Assembly: GCA_903823665.1 (NCBI GenBank)
Contig: CAIJTR010000067.1
Span: forward strand, 1 to 64,000
DNA length: 64,000 nt
Origin: an uncultured Rhodospirillales bacterium
Lineage (GTDB): Bacteria; Pseudomonadota; Alphaproteobacteria; Acetobacterales; Acetobacteraceae
Reading direction: 5' to 3'
In this document: one piece after another, positions 3,954 to 26,984 of the stretch
How positions within the stretch are numbered: position 1 is the stretch's first letter
How the letters are laid out: the number at the start of each line of letters is the position of its first letter
The notes under the pieces: generated by a model
The model's input: the letters and a program-made list of their open reading frames with translations, nothing else
Told to the model about the DNA's origin: nothing
Databases searched by the model: none
Translations under genes and position numbers: made by a program

Positions 3954-6650
<2,697 letters not shown>

Positions 6651-6679
6651 CACCTGCATCCAACGATCAAAGGACCGAC

Positions 6680-7177
6680 ATGACAGACCAAACCATGCTA
6701 GCGGCCCGCTCCGGGGCCAGCCCAGACGTGCCGGCGTCCGGTGGGCAGGACGTCTTCGTCACGCTTTCGGTGGACAACCAACTATGCGGCATACCTGTGC
6801 TGGCGGTGCGTGATGTGCTCGGCCCGCAAATCATCACGCGCATTCCACTGGCACCACCCGAAGTTGCCGGCAGCCTCAATTTGCGTGGCCGCATCGTCAC
6901 CGCCATCGACCTGCGACGTCGGCTCGGTCTGCAGCCGCAACCCCACGGTGCCATCCAAATGTCAGTGGTGGCCGAGCAGGGCGGTGAACTTTACGCGCTG
7001 CTCGTCGATCAGGTTTCTGAGGTGATGAGCCTGCCAAGGGGGCAATTCGAGCGCAACCCGCCCACCCTGTCCGCCGAATGGGGACGCTACAGCTCCGGCA
7101 TTTACCGCCTGCAGGGCAGGCTGCTGGCAGTGCTCGACATTTCCCGCCTACTCGCCCTGTCACACGCACCTGTTTGA
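6680..7177 (+). CDS. cheW: Chemotaxis coupling protein CheW
   Basis: The product is 165 residues with a CheW SH3-like domain, including CGIPVLAVRDVLGPQ, RIPLAPPEVAGSLNLRGRIVTAIDLR and a terminal VLDISRLL, the usual landmarks of the adaptor that links chemoreceptors to CheA. The first 30 residues are a polar, poorly conserved leader. The start is supported by AAAGGA eight bases ahead of the ATG. It sits 29 bases after cheA and 11 before cheY in the same operon. Confidence 0.94.
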   Translation: MTDQTMLAARSGASPDVPASGGQDVFVTLSVDNQLCGIPVLAVRDVLGPQIITRIPLAPPEVAGSLNLRGRIVTAIDLRRRLGLQPQPHGAIQMSVVAEQGGELYALLVDQVSEVMSLPRGQFERNPPTLSAEWGRYSSGIYRLQGRLLAVLDISRLLALSHAPV

Positions 7178-15834: not shown

Positions 15835-16605
15835 ATGCGCGCCATTCTTGCCACAGGTTCGATGCTGCTGCTGCTCGCCGGATGTGCAACCCCGCCGCCG
15901 CCGCCCCCCGTGTTGACGCCGCCGGAGGCTGATGCGCGTGGAGATGATGCCCTTAAGGCCGGCCACGCGCAGGAAGCGCTGGACGACTACTTGATTGCCG
16001 CCAAACAGGGCGACATGCGCGGCCGCGTTGGCATTGGCCAGATGTATTTCACCGGCATCGGCGTGGTGAAAGATTTTGCGGAGGCCAGCGTCTGGCTCAC
16101 ACCGCCTGCCGAGGCGGGCGACAAGAAGGCGCAGTATATTCTCGGCCAGATGAATGACACCGGCGGCAGCGGCGTGGTGCAGAACCGCAAGGCGGCGTTC
16201 GCCTGGTACACCAAGGCTGCAGCACAGGGTGAGAGCGGTGCCGCTTATGCCCTAGGCCGCGCCTATAATTTCGGCATGGGCGTCACAACTGATTATCGCG
16301 AGGCGCTGCGCTGGTACACAACCGCAGCCAATGCCGGGAACTCAGACGCCATCACAGCCATTGGTGTTTTGTATGCCGAAGGGCGTGGCGTTTCGCAGAG
16401 CTTCAAACTGGCATTGGGCCAATTCCAGAAGGCCGCCGACATGGGCAATGGCGAGGCGATGCGCCGGATCGGCAATCTGTATTTCGACGGTGACGGCGTG
16501 CCGCACAACGACACCATCGCCTATGATTGGATGCGCAAGGCGGCAGCAGCCGGAAATCAGGACGCCGCACGCAGGCTCGCCACCCGCGCGCTGCCGGAGA
16601 ACTAA
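15835..16605 (+). CDS. Sel1-repeat lipoprotein
   Basis: The product is 256 residues. The N-terminus ends in a lipobox, LLLLAGC, so the mature protein should be lipidated at C17 or C18 and membrane anchored. The rest is a solenoid of about six Sel1-like repeats with recurring G-x-G-V and A-A-x-x-G-x-x-A patterns (VGIGQMYFTGIGV, YALGRAYNFGMGV, TAIGVLYAEGRGV, RRIGNLYFDGDGV). Such solenoids mediate protein-protein contacts; the partner is unknown. GAGGAG precedes the start. Its last four bases overlap the end of the convergent MFS gene. Confidence 0.85.
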   Translation: MRAILATGSMLLLLAGCATPPPPPPVLTPPEADARGDDALKAGHAQEALDDYLIAAKQGDMRGRVGIGQMYFTGIGVVKDFAEASVWLTPPAEAGDKKAQYILGQMNDTGGSGVVQNRKAAFAWYTKAAAQGESGAAYALGRAYNFGMGVTTDYREALRWYTTAANAGNSDAITAIGVLYAEGRGVSQSFKLALGQFQKAADMGNGEAMRRIGNLYFDGDGVPHNDTIAYDWMRKAAAAGNQDAARRLATRALPEN

Positions 16606-17831
16606 GCGACCACCGGAACCTTCGCCCGCAGCATTCCGGTTGAAACCAAAGCGATCACAGCCAAAGCCAGCGGCGGGAAGGCCACCCAGCACACCACGTC
16701 CCAGCCATAGCTGGTCAGCAATCCGCCCGATGCGAACGAGCCGACCACCATGGTGCCGAACACCAGAAAGTCGTTGAACGCCTGCACCCGCGTCCGCTCC
16801 TCCGGCCTGTGGCATTCGAGCACCAGTGCCGACGCTCCCACGAAGCCGAAATTCCAGCCAAGGCCGAGCAGGATCAGTGCCGCCCAGAAATGCGCGACAT
16901 CAATCCCGGCAATCCCGGTCAGCGCCGCAGCAGCGGTCAGCGCCAGCCCCACCAGCACAATACGCGGCGCACCGAAGCGGGTGATCAGCCGGCCCGTGAA
17001 CAGGCTCGGCGCATACATCGCCACCACATGCCATTGCAGGCCAAGGTTGGACGATTCCTGCGACAATCCACACAGCCGCATCGCCAGCGGGGCAGATGTC
17101 ATGATGAAGTTCATCAGCAAATACGTCACAACACCGCAGGCCACCGCGGCGATGAAGCGCGGCTGACGGGCGATTTCAGCCATCGGCCTGCCGCTGCCAC
17201 GCTCACTGACCGACGGCTTCGGCAGCACGACGCCAGCGAGCACCAAAGCGGACAGCAGGGCGACACCAGCCTGCGCCAGATAGCTCACGGCAAACAGGTA
17301 AGGCGGCCAAAGCTGCATGGTGTAGGTGACAATCTGCGGGCCGATCACACCTGCGAAGATGCCTCCAACCATAACGGTCGACAGCGCCCTCGCCCGCTTC
17401 GCCGGTTCGACGCAATCCGCCGCCGCAAAGCGGAATGACAGCACCACCGCCGCGTAAGCACCGCCAAAGAACGTGCCAAGGCAAAACAGCCAGAACGAGC
17501 CGAGCACAATCGCTGCCGCCGCAATCAGGCCGCACAGCATGCCGCAGAACGTGCCAAGCATGAACGCGGCGCGTCTGCCATAGCGCTGCGCCACCATTCC
17601 GGCGGGCAACGTGCCGCAGGTCATGCCGATCACAAAGATGGTGATCGGCAAAGTGGCCAGCGCCTTGCTGGGAGCCAAAACATTGCCGATGACGGCCCCG
17701 GTTGCATAGACGACGGTGGCATTCGCCCCCGCGAGCGCCTGCGCGATGGCAAGGCGCAGCACATTGCGGCGGCCGGCGGTTTGATCCACGTCTGGTGCTC
17801 CCTTGTCACCCAGCACCGTTACTTGGGCCAA
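16602..17831 (-). CDS. Major facilitator superfamily transporter
   Basis: The product is 409 residues, rich in long hydrophobic segments consistent with a 12-helix MFS carrier. The loop after helix 2 has GMVAQRYGRRAAFMLG, matching the MFS signature G-x3-D/R-R-x-G-R-R, and a second-half copy is GRLITRFGAPRIVL. The substrate cannot be inferred. It is alone between a convergent lipoprotein gene and a divergent DUF3034 gene. Confidence 0.85.
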   Translation of the reverse strand: MAQVTVLGDKGAPDVDQTAGRRNVLRLAIAQALAGANATVVYATGAVIGNVLAPSKALATLPITIFVIGMTCGTLPAGMVAQRYGRRAAFMLGTFCGMLCGLIAAAAIVLGSFWLFCLGTFFGGAYAAVVLSFRFAAADCVEPAKRARALSTVMVGGIFAGVIGPQIVTYTMQLWPPYLFAVSYLAQAGVALLSALVLAGVVLPKPSVSERGSGRPMAEIARQPRFIAAVACGVVTYLLMNFIMTSAPLAMRLCGLSQESSNLGLQWHVVAMYAPSLFTGRLITRFGAPRIVLVGLALTAAAALTGIAGIDVAHFWAALILLGLGWNFGFVGASALVLECHRPEERTRVQAFNDFLVFGTMVVGSFASGGLLTSYGWDVVCWVAFPPLALAVIALVSTGMLRAKVPVVA

Positions 17832-18028: not shown

Positions 18029-18928
18029 ATGCGAAAATTGATATGGGGCGCGACCCTGCTGGCGGCGATGGCCGGTGCCTCCGGCGCAGCTTGGGCGCAG
18101 GACGCGCCAATGTTCATCAATCCAGACATCGGCAGCGGAAAACTGCTGGCCACCAGCGGCGTGTCGAACATCGAAGGTGCCGGCGGCGGCGGTATTTCCA
18201 CCTGGGCGCTGATCACCGGCTACGCCACGCGCGACCAGATTGGCGGCAATGTTCACGTCACCTACGCGCCGCTGTCGAATTTCGAAGTCTACAACACCGG
18301 TGCCGCCATCGGCCTCCATAACCGGGTCGAGGTTTCCTACAACCGGCTGGTTTTTGACACCGGCCCGACCGGCGGCAAGCTCGGCCTTGGCCATAATTTC
18401 GCGTTCAACCAGGATGTCGTCGGCGTGAAAATCCGCCTGTTCGGTGACGCCGTTTATGATCAGGACAGTTTCCTGCCGCAGGTCTCCGTCGGTGCCCAAT
18501 ACAAGACCACCGACCGCTCCAACATCCTCAAAGCCATTGGTGCCAAGAACCATGACGGCACCGATTTCTACGTGGCAGCCACCAAGCTCTTCCTCAACGA
18601 AAGCGTGCTGGCCAACGCCACGCTGCGGCTGACCAAGGCCAACCAGATCGGCATTCTCGGTTTCGGCGGACCGAAGGGGAACGATTACCAGCCCGAATTT
18701 GAAGGCTCGCTCGCCTATCTGTTCACCCGCAAACTCGCCGTGGGCGGCGAGTACCGGACGATGCCGAGCAATCTCGGCTTCAGCAAATCCGACGACTGGA
18801 AGACGCTATATGCCGCGTATTTCATCAACAAACACGCCTCGATCACGCTGGCCTATGTGAGCCTCGGCACCATCGCCACGCAAAAGAACCAGCAGGGTGC
18901 CTATCTCTCCGCCCAGATTGGATTTTGA
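18029..18928 (+). CDS. DUF3034 family exported protein
   Basis: The product is 299 residues. A clear Sec signal peptide (RKLIWGATLLAAMAGASGAAWAQ) is followed by repeated amphipathic strand-like segments ending in SAQIGF, an aromatic C-terminus as in outer-membrane beta-barrels. The pattern fits DUF3034, whose function is not established. GAGGGAGAG precedes the ATG. The next gene, 22 bases downstream on the same strand, encodes an exported truncated haemoglobin, suggesting a two-gene envelope operon. Confidence 0.8.
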   Translation: MRKLIWGATLLAAMAGASGAAWAQDAPMFINPDIGSGKLLATSGVSNIEGAGGGGISTWALITGYATRDQIGGNVHVTYAPLSNFEVYNTGAAIGLHNRVEVSYNRLVFDTGPTGGKLGLGHNFAFNQDVVGVKIRLFGDAVYDQDSFLPQVSVGAQYKTTDRSNILKAIGAKNHDGTDFYVAATKLFLNESVLANATLRLTKANQIGILGFGGPKGNDYQPEFEGSLAYLFTRKLAVGGEYRTMPSNLGFSKSDDWKTLYAAYFINKHASITLAYVSLGTIATQKNQQGAYLSAQIGF

Positions 18929-18950
18929 AATCTCCTTGAAGGATGAAGCC

Positions 18951-19394
18951 ATGTTGACCAACACACTGCGCATCGCCGGCGCTGCTGTTCTCGCAGTCGG
19001 ACTGCTCTCCCTCAACACCGCCCGGGCGGACGAGCCTGATCTAGACGCCTTCAACGCCTTTGGCGGCAAGCCAGGGCTTGAGAAAGTGGCCGATCTTGGC
19101 GTCGAAAAGCTGCGGGCAGATCCACGCATCAAGGCGCGCTTCGCGGGCGCAAACATCCCGCATCTCAAGATGGAACTGGCCGAGCAATTCTGCGCCCTGC
19201 TCAACGGCCCCTGCCAATACACCGGCAAGGACATGTCATCCGCCCATGCCGGAATGGGCCTGCACGATGCGGACTTCAACGCGCTCGCCGAAGACTTCCA
19301 GATCGCCATGACAGAACTGGACGTCCCCTTCCGCTACCAAAACGTGCTGGTCGCCAAGCTGGCACCAATGGAAAAGCAGATGGTGGGGAAGTAG
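18951..19394 (+). CDS. Exported group 1 truncated haemoglobin
   Basis: The product is 147 residues. The first 25 form a Sec signal ending LNTARA-D. The remainder is a group 1 truncated globin: FGGKPGLEKVAD opens helix B, CQYTGKDMSSAHAGMGL carries the proximal haem histidine (H in AHAGMG), and the helix FRYQNVLVAKLAPM closes the fold. Group 1 globins bind O2 or NO; most are cytoplasmic, so the signal peptide is notable. GAAGGA lies upstream. It is likely co-transcribed with the DUF3034 gene. Confidence 0.88.
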   Translation: MLTNTLRIAGAAVLAVGLLSLNTARADEPDLDAFNAFGGKPGLEKVADLGVEKLRADPRIKARFAGANIPHLKMELAEQFCALLNGPCQYTGKDMSSAHAGMGLHDADFNALAEDFQIAMTELDVPFRYQNVLVAKLAPMEKQMVGK

Positions 19395-19452
19395 GCGATT
19401 CTGCCGACGACATGGCCTGGTCGTGGCACCAAGCCGCGATCAGGCGGTTTTG

Positions 19453-19869
19453 TCAGCGTCGATACGGCAACGGCAGCAGCGCCGCCGCTGGCACCTTCAT
19501 GTCGCCGGGGACAATCACCACACAATCCGGCGCGTAGTCGACCAGCAATTCGCGGCACGCCCCGCAGGGTGTGACGACCGCGATCTCCTGATCCGCCTCC
19601 TCCGGCTTCGGATGCCGAACAGCCACAGCGGTAATGATGTGCGAGCCGCCATCAAGAATGGCGCGGCCAAGCGCAATTGGCTCGGCGCAAATAGACAACC
19701 GCCCGACCGTGGTTCCAAGATGCAGCCCGGTCCAGATGCGACCATCCGCATCCCGCAACGCCGCCGCCACGGTATGCCAAAACGGGCGGTGATGCTCGCC
19801 TATCACCGCCCGCGCCGCCTCAATCAGTTCCAGATCGGCGGCATCAAGTGGTGCCGCCGGATGGATCAA
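19453..19869 (-). CDS. Cytidine deaminase-like zinc hydrolase
   Basis: The product is 138 residues with the two zinc motifs of the deaminase family: LSICAEPIALGRAI (C-A-E, catalytic Glu) and VVTPCGACRELLVDY (P-C-x2-C). The cysteine in place of histidine in the first motif is typical of the small tetrameric cytidine deaminases and of blasticidin-S deaminases. It could salvage cytidine or act on a related base. It starts 7 bases after the recA stop on the same strand, so it is probably transcribed with recA from the SOS-type promoter. Confidence 0.82.
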   Translation of the reverse strand: MIHPAAPLDAADLELIEAARAVIGEHHRPFWHTVAAALRDADGRIWTGLHLGTTVGRLSICAEPIALGRAILDGGSHIITAVAVRHPKPEEADQEIAVVTPCGACRELLVDYAPDCVVIVPGDMKVPAAALLPLPYRR

Positions 19870-21083: not shown

Positions 21084-22697
21084 TCACATCGCCAAATCAG
21101 TCACTTTCCGCAGCGCGGCGACGAGTTCCGCCAGGGTGTACGGCTTGGCGAGAAACACCGTGGCATGCTTCTGCACGGCACCATGGAGTGGCTTTTCAGC
21201 ATAGCCTGACGCTAAAATCACAGGCAAATCCTGGGTTGCATGCTCCATGCGCACACGTTGCGCCAGGGCTGTCCCGTCAATGCCGGGCATCACCATGTCA
21301 GAAATCAATGCGGTCAACGCCGGGGCATCACATGGCCGGTTTTCGAGCAATTCGAGCGCCGATTCGCCCGAATCGGCCATCAGCACCTCCCAACCGGCCC
21401 GCTGCAGCGCCCTGCCCGCAAGTTTACGCACTGCGTCCTCGTCATCAACGAGAAGCACCAGGCCACCGGATACGGCGCGCGCGGGGGCCGGCGTCGGAAT
21501 TGCTGCCAAAGCTTTGGGAGTTTCCACCCCCTCCCCCTCATCCCAGCGCGGCAGGTAGATGCGCATGCAGGTGCCGCGGCCAAGCGTGCTTTCCACCCCG
21601 AGAAACCCATCCGACTGACGGACGATGCCGTGCACCGTGGAAAGGCCGAGCCCGCTGCCACCGGCTTCACGCTTGGTCGTGAAGAACGGATCGAAGATGC
21701 GCGGCAGCACATCTGGCGGGATGCCCCCCCCGGTGTCCTGCACGTCTATCGTCACGTAGCGGCCGGGCGGAACAGCCTCCGCCCCATGAATGATCGTGCG
21801 AAGTGTCGTGATGTGGCCGCTGCGCAAGGTGAGTTCGCCGCCGTTGGGCATGGCATCGCGCGCATTGACGGCAAGGTTGACCAGCACTTGGTCAAGTTGC
21901 GTCGGGTCAGCGCGGACCTTGCGTCCCGGCTGTTCAAGATCGAGCACGAGGCGCACCTGGCTGCCGATCAGCCGGTGCAGCAGCGAGGATATGCCCTCAA
22001 TCACATCATTCATCGCGAGCGCCCTGGGCTGCAGCGTTTGTTGCCGTCCGAACGCAAGAAGTTGTCGCACGAGCGCTGCACCGCGTTGCGCGCTGCCTTG
22101 GATAACGCGTGTATCCTCCGCCGTTTCACCCGCGGGCTCGCGCTCGGCGATGCATTCGGCGGCGCCCAGAATGGCCGTCAGCAGATTGTTGAAATCATGC
22201 GCAATGCCGCCCGCGAGTTGCCCGGTGGCCTGGAGTTTCTGGCTGTGCGCGAGTTGTGCCTCCAACTGCCGCTGTGGCGTGAGATCAGTCAAGCGCAGCA
22301 CGGCACCAGAAATGATCCCGCCGCCCTCATCAATCGGGTGTACAGCCACACGGATTTCCTGGCGGTTGTCTCCCACGAGCGTGGCGATGAAGCCCCTGCC
22401 CTCAGGGGCGCGGCCGTTCAGCACGCGCCCGATCTCGTTGGTCACGGCCCCTCGTGAAGTGTGGTGGAACAGCGGGGCGACCGGTGCGCCGTGTTTCAGC
22501 AAGACAACACCCGCGAGCATCTGCGACAGCGCGACGTTGAATTGAACCAGCTTGAAAGCGGCGTCGACGACCGATGCAGGCCCGGCCGCGTCATGCAGCA
22601 TCATCGCCGTGAGCGGGTCGCCCAGGTCTGCCAGCCGTGCCAACAAAACCGGCGCTGGCTTGCTATGGCGCAATTGCTGCCACGATCGGGTGATCAT
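21084..22697 (-). CDS. cckA: Hybrid histidine kinase CckA, without membrane segments
   Basis: The product is 537 residues: a PAS-like N-terminal half (to about 145); a HisKA domain with H167 in GQLAGGIAHDFNNLLTAILG; a HATPase domain with NLAVNARDAMPNGG, DTGGGIPP and GGSGLGLSTVHGI; and a C-terminal receiver with LVDDEDAVR and SDMVMPGIDG. The GIAHDFNNLL motif and receiver match CckA, the kinase/phosphatase atop the ChpT-CtrA relay. No transmembrane helix is seen, unlike the two in Caulobacter CckA. Its ATG overlaps the flhB stop (ATGA), coupling it to the flagellar export operon. ChpT is encoded at 3135-3812. Confidence 0.87.
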   Translation of the reverse strand: MITRSWQQLRHSKPAPVLLARLADLGDPLTAMMLHDAAGPASVVDAAFKLVQFNVALSQMLAGVVLLKHGAPVAPLFHHTSRGAVTNEIGRVLNGRAPEGRGFIATLVGDNRQEIRVAVHPIDEGGGIISGAVLRLTDLTPQRQLEAQLAHSQKLQATGQLAGGIAHDFNNLLTAILGAAECIAEREPAGETAEDTRVIQGSAQRGAALVRQLLAFGRQQTLQPRALAMNDVIEGISSLLHRLIGSQVRLVLDLEQPGRKVRADPTQLDQVLVNLAVNARDAMPNGGELTLRSGHITTLRTIIHGAEAVPPGRYVTIDVQDTGGGIPPDVLPRIFDPFFTTKREAGGSGLGLSTVHGIVRQSDGFLGVESTLGRGTCMRIYLPRWDEGEGVETPKALAAIPTPAPARAVSGGLVLLVDDEDAVRKLAGRALQRAGWEVLMADSGESALELLENRPCDAPALTALISDMVMPGIDGTALAQRVRMEHATQDLPVILASGYAEKPLHGAVQKHATVFLAKPYTLAELVAALRKVTDLAM

Positions 22698-23761
22698 GGC
22701 CCCACGCTTCGACCGACGGGGGTTTGGAGCCGCCAGACATAGGCGATCAGTTCCGCCACCGCGCGGAAATATTCTGCAGGCACCTCTGATTCTAGCGCCA
22801 GCGGATAAAGCGCCCTGGCAAGCGGCGGGTTGGCGATCAGCGGTACCCCGGCTTTTTCTCCTACCTCGCGAATGCGCGCCGCCACTTCGTCCATGCCTTT
22901 CGCAATGATGCGAGGGGCACCGCCAGAACCACGCTCATAGGCCAGCGCCACAGCATAGTGGGTGGGGTTAGTGACGATGACGGTGGCGCGCGGAACCGCC
23001 TGCATCATGCGTTTGCGCGAACGCTGCTGCCGGATTTGCTTCAGCTTCTGCTTGACGTGCGGATCACCATCGCCCTCCCGCTGCTCGTCTCGCTGCTCCT
23101 GCTTTGTCATGCGCATGGAGGCGTTGAAGCTGCTCTGACTGCGCAACACATCCGCTGCCGCGATAGCGCCCTGCACGGCGAGAATGGGGATAAGCGTTGC
23201 CGTGAGATGCGCACCGAGCTTGCCTGCCACCAACTCAATCGGCCAGCTGATCGACTGGTGCATGTCCGGCAGGGCGGCGGCGATACCGTGCCAGGCCAAC
23301 GCCCCCATCGCGCCGATTTTGAGCAGCGACTTGCCGGTTTCCATCAAGTTGTGCGGACCGAGCAACCGGGCGATCCCGGCCATCGGGTTCAGTTTGCCAA
23401 AATCCGGTTGCAGAGCCGAGGTTTTGATCAAAAAGCGGGTCTGCACCAGCACGCTGAGCGAGCCCACGAGGGCTGCGGCAAGGCTGAACGGCCAAACCAG
23501 TGACAGCACCGCATGCCCCGCCAAGCGTAGCGCCTGGCTGGGTTCGAGCGTGGCGAACTCGCCGAGCAGTCGCGTCATCGGGCCGACGCTGCTCTGCATT
23601 GCTCCGGGCAAATACTGGCCGATGATGGCCGCAGCAGCACCGAGAACCGCCACGCCCGCCACCTCGCGTGACATTGGCGCATTTCCGGCCTCACGCGCCT
23701 GCTGCTGCCGTTTTGGGGACGCGGCTTCTGTTTTGTCTTCGTTGTCCGCACCCTCGGACAT
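22694..23761 (-). CDS. flhB: Flagellar export protein FlhB
   Basis: The product is 355 residues. The N-terminus EGADNEDKTEAASPKRQQQAREAG is the typical FlhB cytoplasmic lead, followed by four hydrophobic segments and a cytoplasmic domain with the self-cleavage motif VTNPTHYAVAL (cut between N and P). It switches the flagellar type III secretion substrate from rod/hook to filament type. It lies between fliR (3-base gap) and cckA (4-base overlap). Confidence 0.95.
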   Translation of the reverse strand: MSEGADNEDKTEAASPKRQQQAREAGNAPMSREVAGVAVLGAAAAIIGQYLPGAMQSSVGPMTRLLGEFATLEPSQALRLAGHAVLSLVWPFSLAAALVGSLSVLVQTRFLIKTSALQPDFGKLNPMAGIARLLGPHNLMETGKSLLKIGAMGALAWHGIAAALPDMHQSISWPIELVAGKLGAHLTATLIPILAVQGAIAAADVLRSQSSFNASMRMTKQEQRDEQREGDGDPHVKQKLKQIRQQRSRKRMMQAVPRATVIVTNPTHYAVALAYERGSGGAPRIIAKGMDEVAARIREVGEKAGVPLIANPPLARALYPLALESEVPAEYFRAVAELIAYVWRLQTPVGRSVGP

Positions 23762-23764
23762 CGA

Positions 23765-24553
23765 TTATTGGCCAGGCAGCGCGACGAAACTGTCATGCGC
23801 CGCCTCTGTCCATACCGAAACCATGCTGCCGGCTATGACCAAAAGCAGCAGCAAACCACCGATAATCTGGCCAGGCACTGACGCAAAATGGGTTTGCAGA
23901 TGCGGCACCAATCGGCCGATCAACCCGATAACAGAATGAAACAACAAAGCCGCCATCAGGAACGGCACCGCCAACTGAAACCCCAAGCGGAAGGCGCTGG
24001 TGAAGGCTGACACGAAGCTGTCCACTGTAAGGCCCGTCGGCAGAAACTGACCGGCGGGCACCAGATGATAGCTGCCGATGAGGGCAGCCAGCGGATAGAC
24101 GTGCAGCCCGGCCGCAAGCACTATAACCGGTGCCGCGAGCCCCAGCAGGCGCGACAGCGCCGCCGTGCTTGGCCCCAAAGTCGGGTCCGGCTGAATGACG
24201 TTGGACATGCCGATGGCACCGGCGATGATCTGCCCCGCCATAGCCGGTGCCAGCACAATCAGCCGCGTCAGCCAGCCGAGCCAGAGCCCAGCAATAACCT
24301 CTGCCAGCAGCATCACCAGCAGATGCGGCACATCGGGCGGCATGGCGGGCATATCGGGCTGCAATACCGGCAGAACGAGGGCCACGAAGGCGAACACGAA
24401 GCCCGCACGCACCGTGCCGGGAACCTCACTTTCGCCAATACCGGGCAGCAGCATGCAGGCCGAGCCGATACGCGCCACCAGCAGCACGGCCGCGAACGCC
24501 CATCCCGGCAGTTCCGCCAGCAGCGCCATTTGCGGCATCAACGCCGGGTTCAT
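23765..24553 (-). CDS. fliR: Flagellar export protein FliR
   Basis: The product is 262 residues, mostly membrane helices, with the family landmarks FVFAFVALVLP, WLGWLTRLIVLAPAMAGQIIAGAIG and SFVSAFTSAFRLGFQLAVPFLMAALLFHSVIGLIGRL (segments about 50-205). It forms part of the export gate with FliP and FliQ in the flagellar basal body. The start overlaps the fliQ stop by four bases. fliP is not in this cluster. Confidence 0.94.
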   Translation of the reverse strand: MNPALMPQMALLAELPGWAFAAVLLVARIGSACMLLPGIGESEVPGTVRAGFVFAFVALVLPVLQPDMPAMPPDVPHLLVMLLAEVIAGLWLGWLTRLIVLAPAMAGQIIAGAIGMSNVIQPDPTLGPSTAALSRLLGLAAPVIVLAAGLHVYPLAALIGSYHLVPAGQFLPTGLTVDSFVSAFTSAFRLGFQLAVPFLMAALLFHSVIGLIGRLVPHLQTHFASVPGQIIGGLLLLLVIAGSMVSVWTEAAHDSFVALPGQ

Positions 24554-24822
24554 CCGGTGCCGACGGCGATCATGCGGTCAAACATCGAGCGCGTGTAGTC
24601 GTTCAGCGTGGCCAGCATGAACGGTCCGGCCAGGAACAGCATGCCGCAGATAACAACGATTTTCGGCACCAGAGCCAGGGTTTGCTCATTGATCTGCGTC
24701 ACTGCCTGAACGAGCGACATCACCACGCCCACCACCAATGCCAGCGCCAGCACCGGGCCGCCGAGTTTGAGAGTGACCAGCATCGTCTCCCGCAGCAGGC
24801 CCGCCACATCGCCGTCATTCAT
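24550..24822 (-). CDS. fliQ: Flagellar export protein FliQ
   Basis: The product is 90 residues with two hydrophobic helices, LKLGGPVLALALVVGVVMSLVQAVTQINEQTL and VVICGMLFLAGPFMLATL (about 16-47 and 53-70), and the conserved QINEQTL turn. It is a small component of the flagellar export gate. It lies between fliE (42-base gap) and fliR (overlapping). Confidence 0.95.
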   Translation of the reverse strand: MNDGDVAGLLRETMLVTLKLGGPVLALALVVGVVMSLVQAVTQINEQTLALVPKIVVICGMLFLAGPFMLATLNDYTRSMFDRMIAVGTG

Positions 24823-24864
24823 TCGGTGCTGGCTTCCATTTTGGATCGTGCATTTCCGGAACGG

Positions 24865-25188
24865 TCAGATCGGCATGCGCATAATGTCCTGGTACGCCTG
24901 AACCACGCGGTCTCGTACGGCGAGGGTCGTTTGCAACGACAGCTCCGCTTTCGAAACGGCCGAAACCACGTCAAGCAAATTGCCGTGCCCTGAGATGGCG
25001 GCGGTGGATTGCGTCTCCGCAGCGTGGCCCTGACTGACGACACCTTTCAGAGCCTGCTGCACCATGCTGCCGAAATCCCCACCACCGGGCTCCACCGCCG
25101 CCGCCATGCCAGGCGCACCGCTGGACTGTGCAGTGCGGTATGCCTGCAACGCCTGGGCAGCGGGGCCGGTGAGGGCTGCGATTGCCAT
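24865..25188 (-). CDS. fliE: Flagellar hook-basal body protein FliE
   Basis: The product is 107 residues. The C-terminal SKAELSLQTTLAVRDRVVQAYQDIMRMPI is the FliE signature; the N-terminus is low in conservation. FliE joins the MS ring to the rod and is an early export substrate. The start lies 4 bases after flgC. Confidence 0.94.
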   Translation of the reverse strand: MAIAALTGPAAQALQAYRTAQSSGAPGMAAAVEPGGGDFGSMVQQALKGVVSQGHAAETQSTAAISGHGNLLDVVSAVSKAELSLQTTLAVRDRVVQAYQDIMRMPI

Positions 25189-25192
25189 GCGT

Positions 25193-25600
25193 TTACTTCA
25201 AAATCTCAATGGCGCGGGTCAGCAGGCTGCGCGTCACCTGCATCACCTGCAAATTGGCGCTATAGGATCGCTGCGCCTCTCGCATGTCCATCACTTCAAC
25301 AAAGCTGTTCACGTTCGGCGTGCTCACGTAGCCGTCGGCATTCGCGGCTGGATGCGATGGATCGTAACGCTGGGGGAACGCGCTTTTGTCGGTGTCGATC
25401 CGCTTGGCAACCACCTGCGGGCCACCGGTACTGCGGTCGATCTGATCGGCAAAGGTCACGGTTTTGCGCCGGTATGGATCAGCCCCCGGCTTGCCGCCGG
25501 TGGTGTCCTGATTGGCCAGGTTCTCTGCAATAACGCGCAGGCGGGTGGATTGCGCCTGCATGCCGCTGGCGGAGATGGCCAGTGCCTTATCAAGATCCAT
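25193..25600 (-). CDS. flgC: Flagellar basal-body rod protein FlgC
   Basis: The product is 135 residues. It has the N-terminal rod motif LAISASGMQAQSTRLRVIAENLANQDTTG and the C-terminal coiled-coil segment EVMDMREAQRSYSANLQVMQVTRSLLTRAIEILK that pack into the proximal rod. Order flgB-flgC-fliE is standard. It starts 27 bases after the flgB stop. Confidence 0.95.
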   Translation of the reverse strand: MDLDKALAISASGMQAQSTRLRVIAENLANQDTTGGKPGADPYRRKTVTFADQIDRSTGGPQVVAKRIDTDKSAFPQRYDPSHPAANADGYVSTPNVNSFVEVMDMREAQRSYSANLQVMQVTRSLLTRAIEILK

Positions 25601-25627
25601 TACCGCACTCCCAATGCAACGCTATGC

Positions 25628-26032
25628 TCATCTTCCCAAAGCCTCTTTGAACATGCCGATATATTTGTGATAAATGGCTGTGACTGTCTCGTGATCGGTG
25701 TCAGTCTGCGCGATTTTTTCGAGTTCTTTGTCCAGCGACACCTCGTTCCCATCCGGAGCGCGCTCATCACGCAACTGCTGCGCGCCATTCTCACCAGACA
25801 GCGTGCCAGCCATGTGCATCGTATTGGTCTGCGTGGGAACGCTGGCGAGATCGAGCCTTTGGCCAGACATTGATTGCGCAAGCACCGCCGAAAACGGCTT
25901 GAGATCGCGTGATTTCCAGCCCGGCGTGTCCGCATTGGCGACGTTTTCGGCAAGCACGCCTTGCCGCGCGCCAAGCCATTGCAGGCGCTTGTCGGCCAGC
26001 GCGAACAACCCAATCGATGATGTCTCTACCAC
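25628..26032 (-). CDS. flgB: Flagellar basal-body rod protein FlgB
   Basis: The product is about 134 residues with LFALADKRLQWLGARQGVLAENVANADTPGWKSRDL, the rod-protein N-terminal motif, and the C-terminal EKIAQTDTDHETVTAIYHKYIGMFKEALGR. The start is set at a GTG (26030-26032) with AGGAG five bases upstream; an in-frame GTG two codons earlier is also possible. Longer open extensions run into the divergent lactonase gene and are unlikely. It is the first gene of the flagellar unit that ends with cckA. Confidence 0.88.
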   Translation of the reverse strand: MVETSSIGLFALADKRLQWLGARQGVLAENVANADTPGWKSRDLKPFSAVLAQSMSGQRLDLASVPTQTNTMHMAGTLSGENGAQQLRDERAPDGNEVSLDKELEKIAQTDTDHETVTAIYHKYIGMFKEALGR

Positions 26033-26111
26033 AGCCACTCCTGTCCAGCCTCGTCTGGCCGTGTCAGAGTGGCGGCAATGAGCTAACGAAACGTAAACGC
26101 CAGGAAGTGCC

Positions 26112-26984
26112 ATGCAAATCATCACCCCCAATGTCCGAACGCACGCCGTCCCACCGCTGGAACTCGGCGAAGGCCCATTCTGGCATCGGGCGGAACAAGC
26201 ACTCTATTTCGTCGATATCCGCGGCCAACGCCTCTACCGGCTGAACCCGGCGACGGATGCGTTCCAGTTCTGGGCAATGCCCTCCGCCATCGGCAGCTTC
26301 GGCATCTGCAAGGACGGCCGTGCCATCGTGGCGCTGCGCGACGGCATCTACTTCTTTGATTTCAGAGACGAAAAATTAACCTTCATCGTCAATCCTGAGG
26401 CCGGGATAACCACCAATCGCTTCAATGACGGCAAAGTCGGCCCCGATGGCCGGTTCTGGGTCGGCAGCATGGACGATAGAGAGGAGAAAGAGCCGATTGC
26501 CGGGCTCTATCGCATCGACCATGACGGCAGCTGCACAACCCAGGTCACCGGCCTGCTCGTCTCCAACGGCCTGGCCTGGAGCCAGGATGGCAACACGATG
26601 TACCACTCCGACAGCCGCCACCGCTTTCTGCATGCCTACGCCTATGATCTCGCCACCGGCAACATCAGCCACAAGCGCGAGGTTCGCACATTCACCGACG
26701 CACAGGGGCGACCGGATGGTGCCGCGATGGATGTGGAAGGCTGCTACTGGAGCGCCGGGCCATCCGCCGGCGTCGTCAACCGCATCGCTCCAGACGGCAC
26801 GATTTTACGCCGCTATGAGCTGCCACTTGCCGCCCCCACCATGCCGTGCTTTGGCGGGCCGGACATGAAAACCCTGTTCGTCACCTCGCTGAAATCCAGT
26901 AGGCTTGGGCCGGAACAAATGGGCGCACTCATCTCGTTCGAGGTCGATGTCGCAGGCACCGACGTGGCGATGTTCGGCGCATGA
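26112..26984 (+). CDS. SMP-30/gluconolactonase family protein
   Basis: The product is 290 residues, a six-bladed beta-propeller of the SMP-30 family. The metal ligands are visible as E in LGEGPFW, N in TNRFNDGKVGPDGRFWVGSMD and D in YHSDSRH. Relatives open sugar lactones such as xylono-, arabino- or glucono-lactone. GGAAG precedes the ATG. Its stop overlaps the epoxide hydrolase start (ATGA). A xylose-dehydrogenase-like SDR gene lies close by on the opposite strand and could supply a lactone. Confidence 0.88.
   Translation: MQIITPNVRTHAVPPLELGEGPFWHRAEQALYFVDIRGQRLYRLNPATDAFQFWAMPSAIGSFGICKDGRAIVALRDGIYFFDFRDEKLTFIVNPEAGITTNRFNDGKVGPDGRFWVGSMDDREEKEPIAGLYRIDHDGSCTTQVTGLLVSNGLAWSQDGNTMYHSDSRHRFLHAYAYDLATGNISHKREVRTFTDAQGRPDGAAMDVEGCYWSAGPSAGVVNRIAPDGTILRRYELPLAAPTMPCFGGPDMKTLFVTSLKSSRLGPEQMGALISFEVDVAGTDVAMFGA

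Follow-up and report, generated by a model that had tools for sequence, protein, structure and literature searches.

Closest described systems

Cytoplasmic haem-based sensing of NO through c-di-GMP takes place with H-NOX or NosP partners. The gene module described here is similar in that a putative haem-type gas sensor is tied to a GGDEF/EAL or kinase output, but its haem-type protein would be extracytoplasmic and is accompanied by a barrel and a copper protein.

In layout, the best analogue is YfiBNR, which consists of the outer-membrane lipoprotein YfiB, the periplasmic YfiR with its disulfides and the inner-membrane diguanylate cyclase YfiN (PMC3375315, PMC4655355, PMC4992967), and in which the lipoprotein and the periplasmic protein control the inner-membrane c-di-GMP enzyme and respond to reducing conditions (PMC4992967). 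YfiBNR is an envelope-spanning operon, as the module would be, in which a c-di-GMP enzyme with HAMP receives a redox-linked cue from the periplasm, with one partner in the outer membrane and a disulfide-bearing partner in the periplasm. The module is not a member of that system, however. Its haem-type globin and blue-copper protein stand where YfiBNR has YfiR, a barrel replaces the OmpA-like lipoprotein, and the output is phosphodiesterase-type in most genomes. The Pfam matches of the module proteins (DUF3034, Bac_globin, CarboxypepD_reg/Copper-bind and dCache_3-HAMP-GGDEF-EAL) do not include the YfiR or YfiB families, and no protein family is held in common with YfiBNR.

The individual proteins also have described relatives. 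The globin resembles HbN (Mycobacterium tuberculosis, PDB 1idr; Tetrahymena, 3aq5) in its fold, in the CD1 Phe and proximal His and in the YTG and Met motifs, but it belongs to a type that is exported or lipidated, carries a cysteine pair (Cys81/Cys88), adjoins a barrel gene and has neither Tyr B10 nor Gln E11. The DUF3034 model is closest among solved folds to the 12-strand outer-membrane amyloid secretion channel FapF, but the identity is 7-10% and no amyloid genes were recognised in the clusters.

A search of the open-access literature on DUF3034, on exported or periplasmic truncated haemoglobins and on truncated haemoglobin with GGDEF/EAL or c-di-GMP gave no account of the DUF3034-globin pair or of the module. 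Two papers mentioning DUF3034 do not concern its function. A preliminary description of the locus knew of no such established envelope system for DUF3034. The module provides a function hypothesis for this family, which has no recorded function, and for a subfamily of globins that would act outside the cytoplasm, a location seldom considered for globins.

The DUF3034-globin locus

The window is a stretch of 64,000 nucleotides from an uncultured Rhodospirillales bacterium, an alphaproteobacterium of the Acetobacteraceae. On its forward strand, a DUF3034 gene (18029..18928, 299 aa) encoding a predicted 12-strand outer-membrane beta-barrel is followed after 22 bases by a gene for a signal-bearing group 1 truncated globin (18951..19394, 147 aa), identified by its PF01152 match and AlphaFold2 fold. 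A Shine-Dalgarno-like AAGGA, read from the sequence, is found on the same strand at 18939..18943, 7 bases 5' of the globin ATG. The terminator-like hairpin 3' of the globin (19415..19445, forward strand) is a weak candidate because one was found where 2.3 are expected in shuffles, and such matches at the locus are no commoner than in shuffled sequence. The upstream neighbour is an MFS-like transporter gene (16602-17831) and the downstream neighbour a cytidine-deaminase-like gene (19453-19869). Both are on the reverse strand, in opposite orientation to the pair, so that DUF3034 and globin form a two-gene unit. NCBIfam has no model that matches either protein of the window. A few kb downstream there is an ordinary flagellar run of flhB, fliR, fliQ, fliE, flgC and flgB-like genes (22694-26131, reverse strand).

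The DUF3034 protein matches PF11231 with 331 bits (E 5e-99) over profile positions 1-255 of 255. Its translation begins with a putative signal peptide, MRKLIWGATLLAAMAGASGAAWA (18029..18097, forward strand), cut before QD. The most conserved part in 57 homologues is a glycine-rich N-terminal segment, TSGVSNIEGAGGGGISTWA, at residues 42-60 (18152..18208, forward strand), where G44, G50, G53 and G55 are invariant and T42, E49, G54, W59 and A60 nearly so; this segment is perhaps a plug inside the barrel. The AlphaFold2 model (pLDDT 88) places 12 strands in the region of residues 71-298, and the C-terminal residue is Phe. An even strand number, a signal peptide and a C-terminal aromatic residue are all features of outer-membrane beta-barrels. 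A Foldseek comparison gave FapF and OmpG as the nearest solved folds, a similarity at fold level only. The designed proteins Ika8 and Ika4 were also considered as PDB relatives, and these low-scoring matches were set aside as probably composition-driven.

The globin matches PF01152 (Bac_globin) with 39.6 bits against a cut-off of 21. A signal peptide of 26 aa, cut after TARA (MLTNTLRIAGAAVLAVGLLSLNTARA|DE), is predicted from the sequence at 18951..19028 (forward strand). By a simple heuristic, about 110 of 116 globin homologues have an N-terminal export signal, and in roughly 25 of these, mainly apparent gammaproteobacterial sequences, the signal is a lipobox. The occurrence of Sec signals in some globins and lipoboxes in others suggests that export is kept via two different routes. 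The AlphaFold2 model, built from a 70-row alignment (pLDDT 90), has an HbN-like 2-on-2 fold matching PDB entries 3aq8 and 1idr with rmsd 1.1-1.3 A, and its TM-scores to trHbN structures are 0.85-0.93 by target length. The proximal histidine His99 (F8; 19245..19247, forward strand) and the CD1 Phe64 are invariant in 70 homologues.

The distal pocket is different from that of HbN. By alignment to the Mycobacterium protein, B10 is Val51 and E11 is Leu76, and the Tyr B10/Gln E11 pair of HbN is absent from the window globin. Nearly all homologues have an aliphatic residue or Phe at these positions. Aliphatic residues in place of the Tyr/Gln pair do not naturally suggest a NO dioxygenase like HbN, and such an apolar pocket would suit NO binding or redox cycling better than NO dioxygenation of the HbN type.

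Two cysteines, Cys81 (19191..19193) and Cys88 (19212..19214), both on the forward strand, form a conserved pair. Cys81 is invariant in the 70-row alignment, and the conservation of Cys88 is seen both there and in a count of 128 distinct globin homologues, where 118 have both cysteines, nine have neither and a single one has only one of them. This all-or-none pattern fits a disulfide. The nine globins without the pair are mostly from Caulobacteraceae, which points to few independent losses.

The preliminary description of the two genes is thus borne out. Both open reading frames and their 22-base spacing were recovered when the sequence was re-read and matched to Pfam, the proposed signal peptide is visible in the translation as a clear Sec-type signal, and the proximal-His motif is intact. 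The suggestion that the DUF3034 product is an outer-membrane barrel gains support from the predicted 12 strands, the nearest folds and the C-terminal Phe.

Linkage across genomes and the larger module

A survey of co-occurrence had been proposed as a check on the pair, and the linkage came out almost without exception. In an evenly sampled set of 398 genomes from the phylum, DUF3034 occurs in 39, each time with the globin directly downstream; among 240 genomes from the class, this holds for nine of the ten with DUF3034. The pairing is far beyond chance. A globin profile scored at least 132 bits at 42 places in the 398 genomes and at most 98 bits at the next best, a gap that is partly by construction because the profile was built partly from surveyed genomes. 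Forty of these 42 globins adjoin DUF3034. The other two (G582 and G414), which were not among the sequences used for the profile, are both lipoproteins.

Among 80 further DUF3034 loci from named genomes, the globin is intact in 76, frameshifted in one (L058) and missing in three; in L061 it is present at a contig end. The few DUF3034 genes without a globin are those of L014, L067, L076 and L119, the first three of which were confirmed to have none downstream. The first aligned globin codon lies a median of 42 bases after the DUF3034 stop. One genome has, besides an intact copy on another contig, a second DUF3034-globin copy that is decaying, both of its genes being interrupted by stops (G341:C3:72191-73313, L193). 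More distant truncated globins occur as tandem pairs or triplets, often with N-terminal extensions, in one family that is without DUF3034 (G322:C44:10899-11768, G336:C15, G361:C14 and many genomes of family f172).

In annotated records of Caballeronia and Novosphingobium, two extra genes adjoin the pair. The first is annotated as a methylamine utilization protein or a carboxypeptidase regulatory-like protein and the second as an EAL protein. The first is a cupredoxin in which His75, Cys111, His114 and Met117, a type-1 copper ligand set, are invariant, and models of Copper-bind or of amicyanin/pseudoazurin match its relatives. The second combines dCache_3, HAMP, GGDEF and EAL domains, with two transmembrane segments flanking a periplasmic region of about 235 aa. 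When the window genome is excluded from the phylum sample, the cupredoxin is clustered with the pair in 32 of 38 DUF3034 genomes and the dCache-HAMP-GGDEF-EAL gene in 30 of 38. At a threshold of 100 bits or more, the cupredoxin family is found anywhere in the genome in 37 of these 38 genomes versus 15 of 359 others. The exported globin paired with a barrel of the preliminary description is supported, but the pair is not the whole system.

Three gene orders recur: cupredoxin, GGDEF-EAL, DUF3034 and globin in one direction (>CUP>GGDEF-EAL>DUF>GLB); the same with DUF3034 and globin first (>DUF>GLB>CUP>GGDEF-EAL); and a divergent arrangement (<GGDEF-EAL<CUP >DUF>GLB). The order depends on the group, which indicates that the gene set stays together through rearrangement. 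Some Alphaproteobacteria have a HAMP histidine kinase (G178, G251) or an MCP (G013) as transducer instead. One histidine kinase has a C-terminal cupredoxin after its third transmembrane segment (G049; L143:4826-6955, reverse strand), and this fusion gene is divergent to a DUF3034-globin pair. Alignment of 69 transducers of the module sensor family shows that the EAL motif is intact in all 69 and that GGDEF is degenerate in 42, which suggests phosphodiesterase activity as the common output.

The two halves of the module are separable. The cupredoxin-GGDEF-EAL pair is located elsewhere in the genome in five genomes where DUF3034 and globin stand alone, and it occurs without DUF3034-globin at 13 of 20 stand-alone cupredoxin loci. 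In four loci (L200, L201, L202 and L211, around 4900-7100) the cupredoxin family adjoins a different exported outer-membrane-like protein of about 410 aa, and in L194 an outer-membrane-like protein of 417 aa is divergent to the cupredoxin. The outer-membrane partner of the module cupredoxin may therefore not always be the same. In L174 and L175 two GGDEF-EAL genes of the same sensor family flank the cupredoxin upstream, possibly after duplication of the transducer.

A putative envelope sensor and its alternatives

The most probable explanation, held with moderate confidence, is that DUF3034 and the globin together make up the outer part of a module in the envelope that senses gas or redox state and has exchangeable transducers. 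DUF3034 would be a small barrel in the outer membrane, and the globin would be free in the periplasm or, in many relatives, anchored as a lipoprotein, with a predicted haem in its apolar distal pocket and an expected Cys81-Cys88 disulfide. The blue-copper protein of the cluster would contact the globin or exchange electrons with it. The gas-bound or redox state of the globin would then be read by a HAMP-containing transducer in the inner membrane through its periplasmic sensor region, often with a change in c-di-GMP breakdown. This transducer is of GGDEF-EAL type in most genomes; in some it is a histidine kinase or a chemoreceptor. NO, O2 or a redox cue could be the ligand. The strongest arguments for sensing are that the output domain is swapped while the input genes stay constant, and that a kinase-cupredoxin fusion exists. 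Weighing against this explanation, the window's locus has neither cupredoxin nor transducer, the two gene pairs of the module are separable, and DUF3034 and globins of this subfamily occasionally occur without each other. It is a more tentative proposal, slightly on the doubtful side, that barrel, disulfide-bearing globin and blue-copper protein are one input unit with varied transducers in a widespread and undescribed class of proteobacterial sensors. Were this so, bacteria would use a haem-copper pair to follow gases or redox state in their envelope and would pass the information on as c-di-GMP, phosphorelay or chemotaxis signals, with consequences for how biofilms form and disperse in many Proteobacteria of soil, freshwater and the sea.

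The preliminary description suggested handling of NO, O2 or haem in the periplasm, but sensing is favoured over simple handling because in most genomes the pair lies in a module together with a blue-copper protein and a membrane transducer. One form of handling would be a periplasmic redox enzyme pair: the globin, once reduced by the cupredoxin, would clear NO (or deal with O2 or peroxide), and the signalling protein would do no more than share its regulation. The neighbourhood of globin and cupredoxin in 32 of 38 genomes agrees with this, as does the small cupredoxin right after the globin in Acetobacteraceae and others. It is nevertheless unlikely, as Val51 and Leu76 replace the HbN residues, the window has no cupredoxin, and what recurs beside the pair is a signal transducer that varies in output type while the input genes are constant. 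An electron conduit across the outer membrane, similar to porin-cytochrome conduits with the globin replacing the cytochrome, would explain the co-location of barrel, haem-type protein and blue-copper protein. However, the CXXCH motif of the periplasmic partner in such conduits does not occur in the window globin sequence, a single haem is predicted, the barrel is small with a conserved glycine-rich segment, and the partners are GGDEF-EAL, kinase or MCP proteins, which makes this reading improbable. Haem or iron acquisition, with the globin as haem carrier and DUF3034 as outer-membrane port, is suggested by an exported haem-type fold adjoining an outer-membrane barrel, but is very doubtful: 12 strands are predicted for DUF3034 versus a 22-strand barrel with a TonB plug in TonB-dependent haem receptors, no TonB-dependent receptor fold is among the PDB matches listed, no haem-uptake genes were recognised in the clusters, and the conserved linkage is to signalling genes.

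Of the proposed sensory module, the window lineage has a reduced version that keeps only the DUF3034-globin pair. No cupredoxin or transducer was found in the fetched flanks of the window and of three same-genus loci, two of them on short contigs, and a search for the module cupredoxin family gave no match in the window's genome. A small cupredoxin of that genome (G000:C165) was rejected as partner on account of its weak similarity and different neighbourhood. The GGDEF-EAL proteins of the genome match the module transducers in their PAS-GGDEF-EAL parts only, and the module sensor region is absent from them. The missing neighbours could mean that the pair is a relic losing its function in this lineage, but this is very doubtful, since both frames are open, key residues are conserved and each gene has a dN/dS of about 0.2-0.4, although dS is close to saturation. 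Judged from these sequence comparisons, the window pair is under purifying selection. Its partner would be encoded elsewhere, or its role would be reduced. Culturable strains with the complete or nearly complete set exist, for example among Caballeronia, Caulobacter, Sphingomonas or Novosphingobium species.
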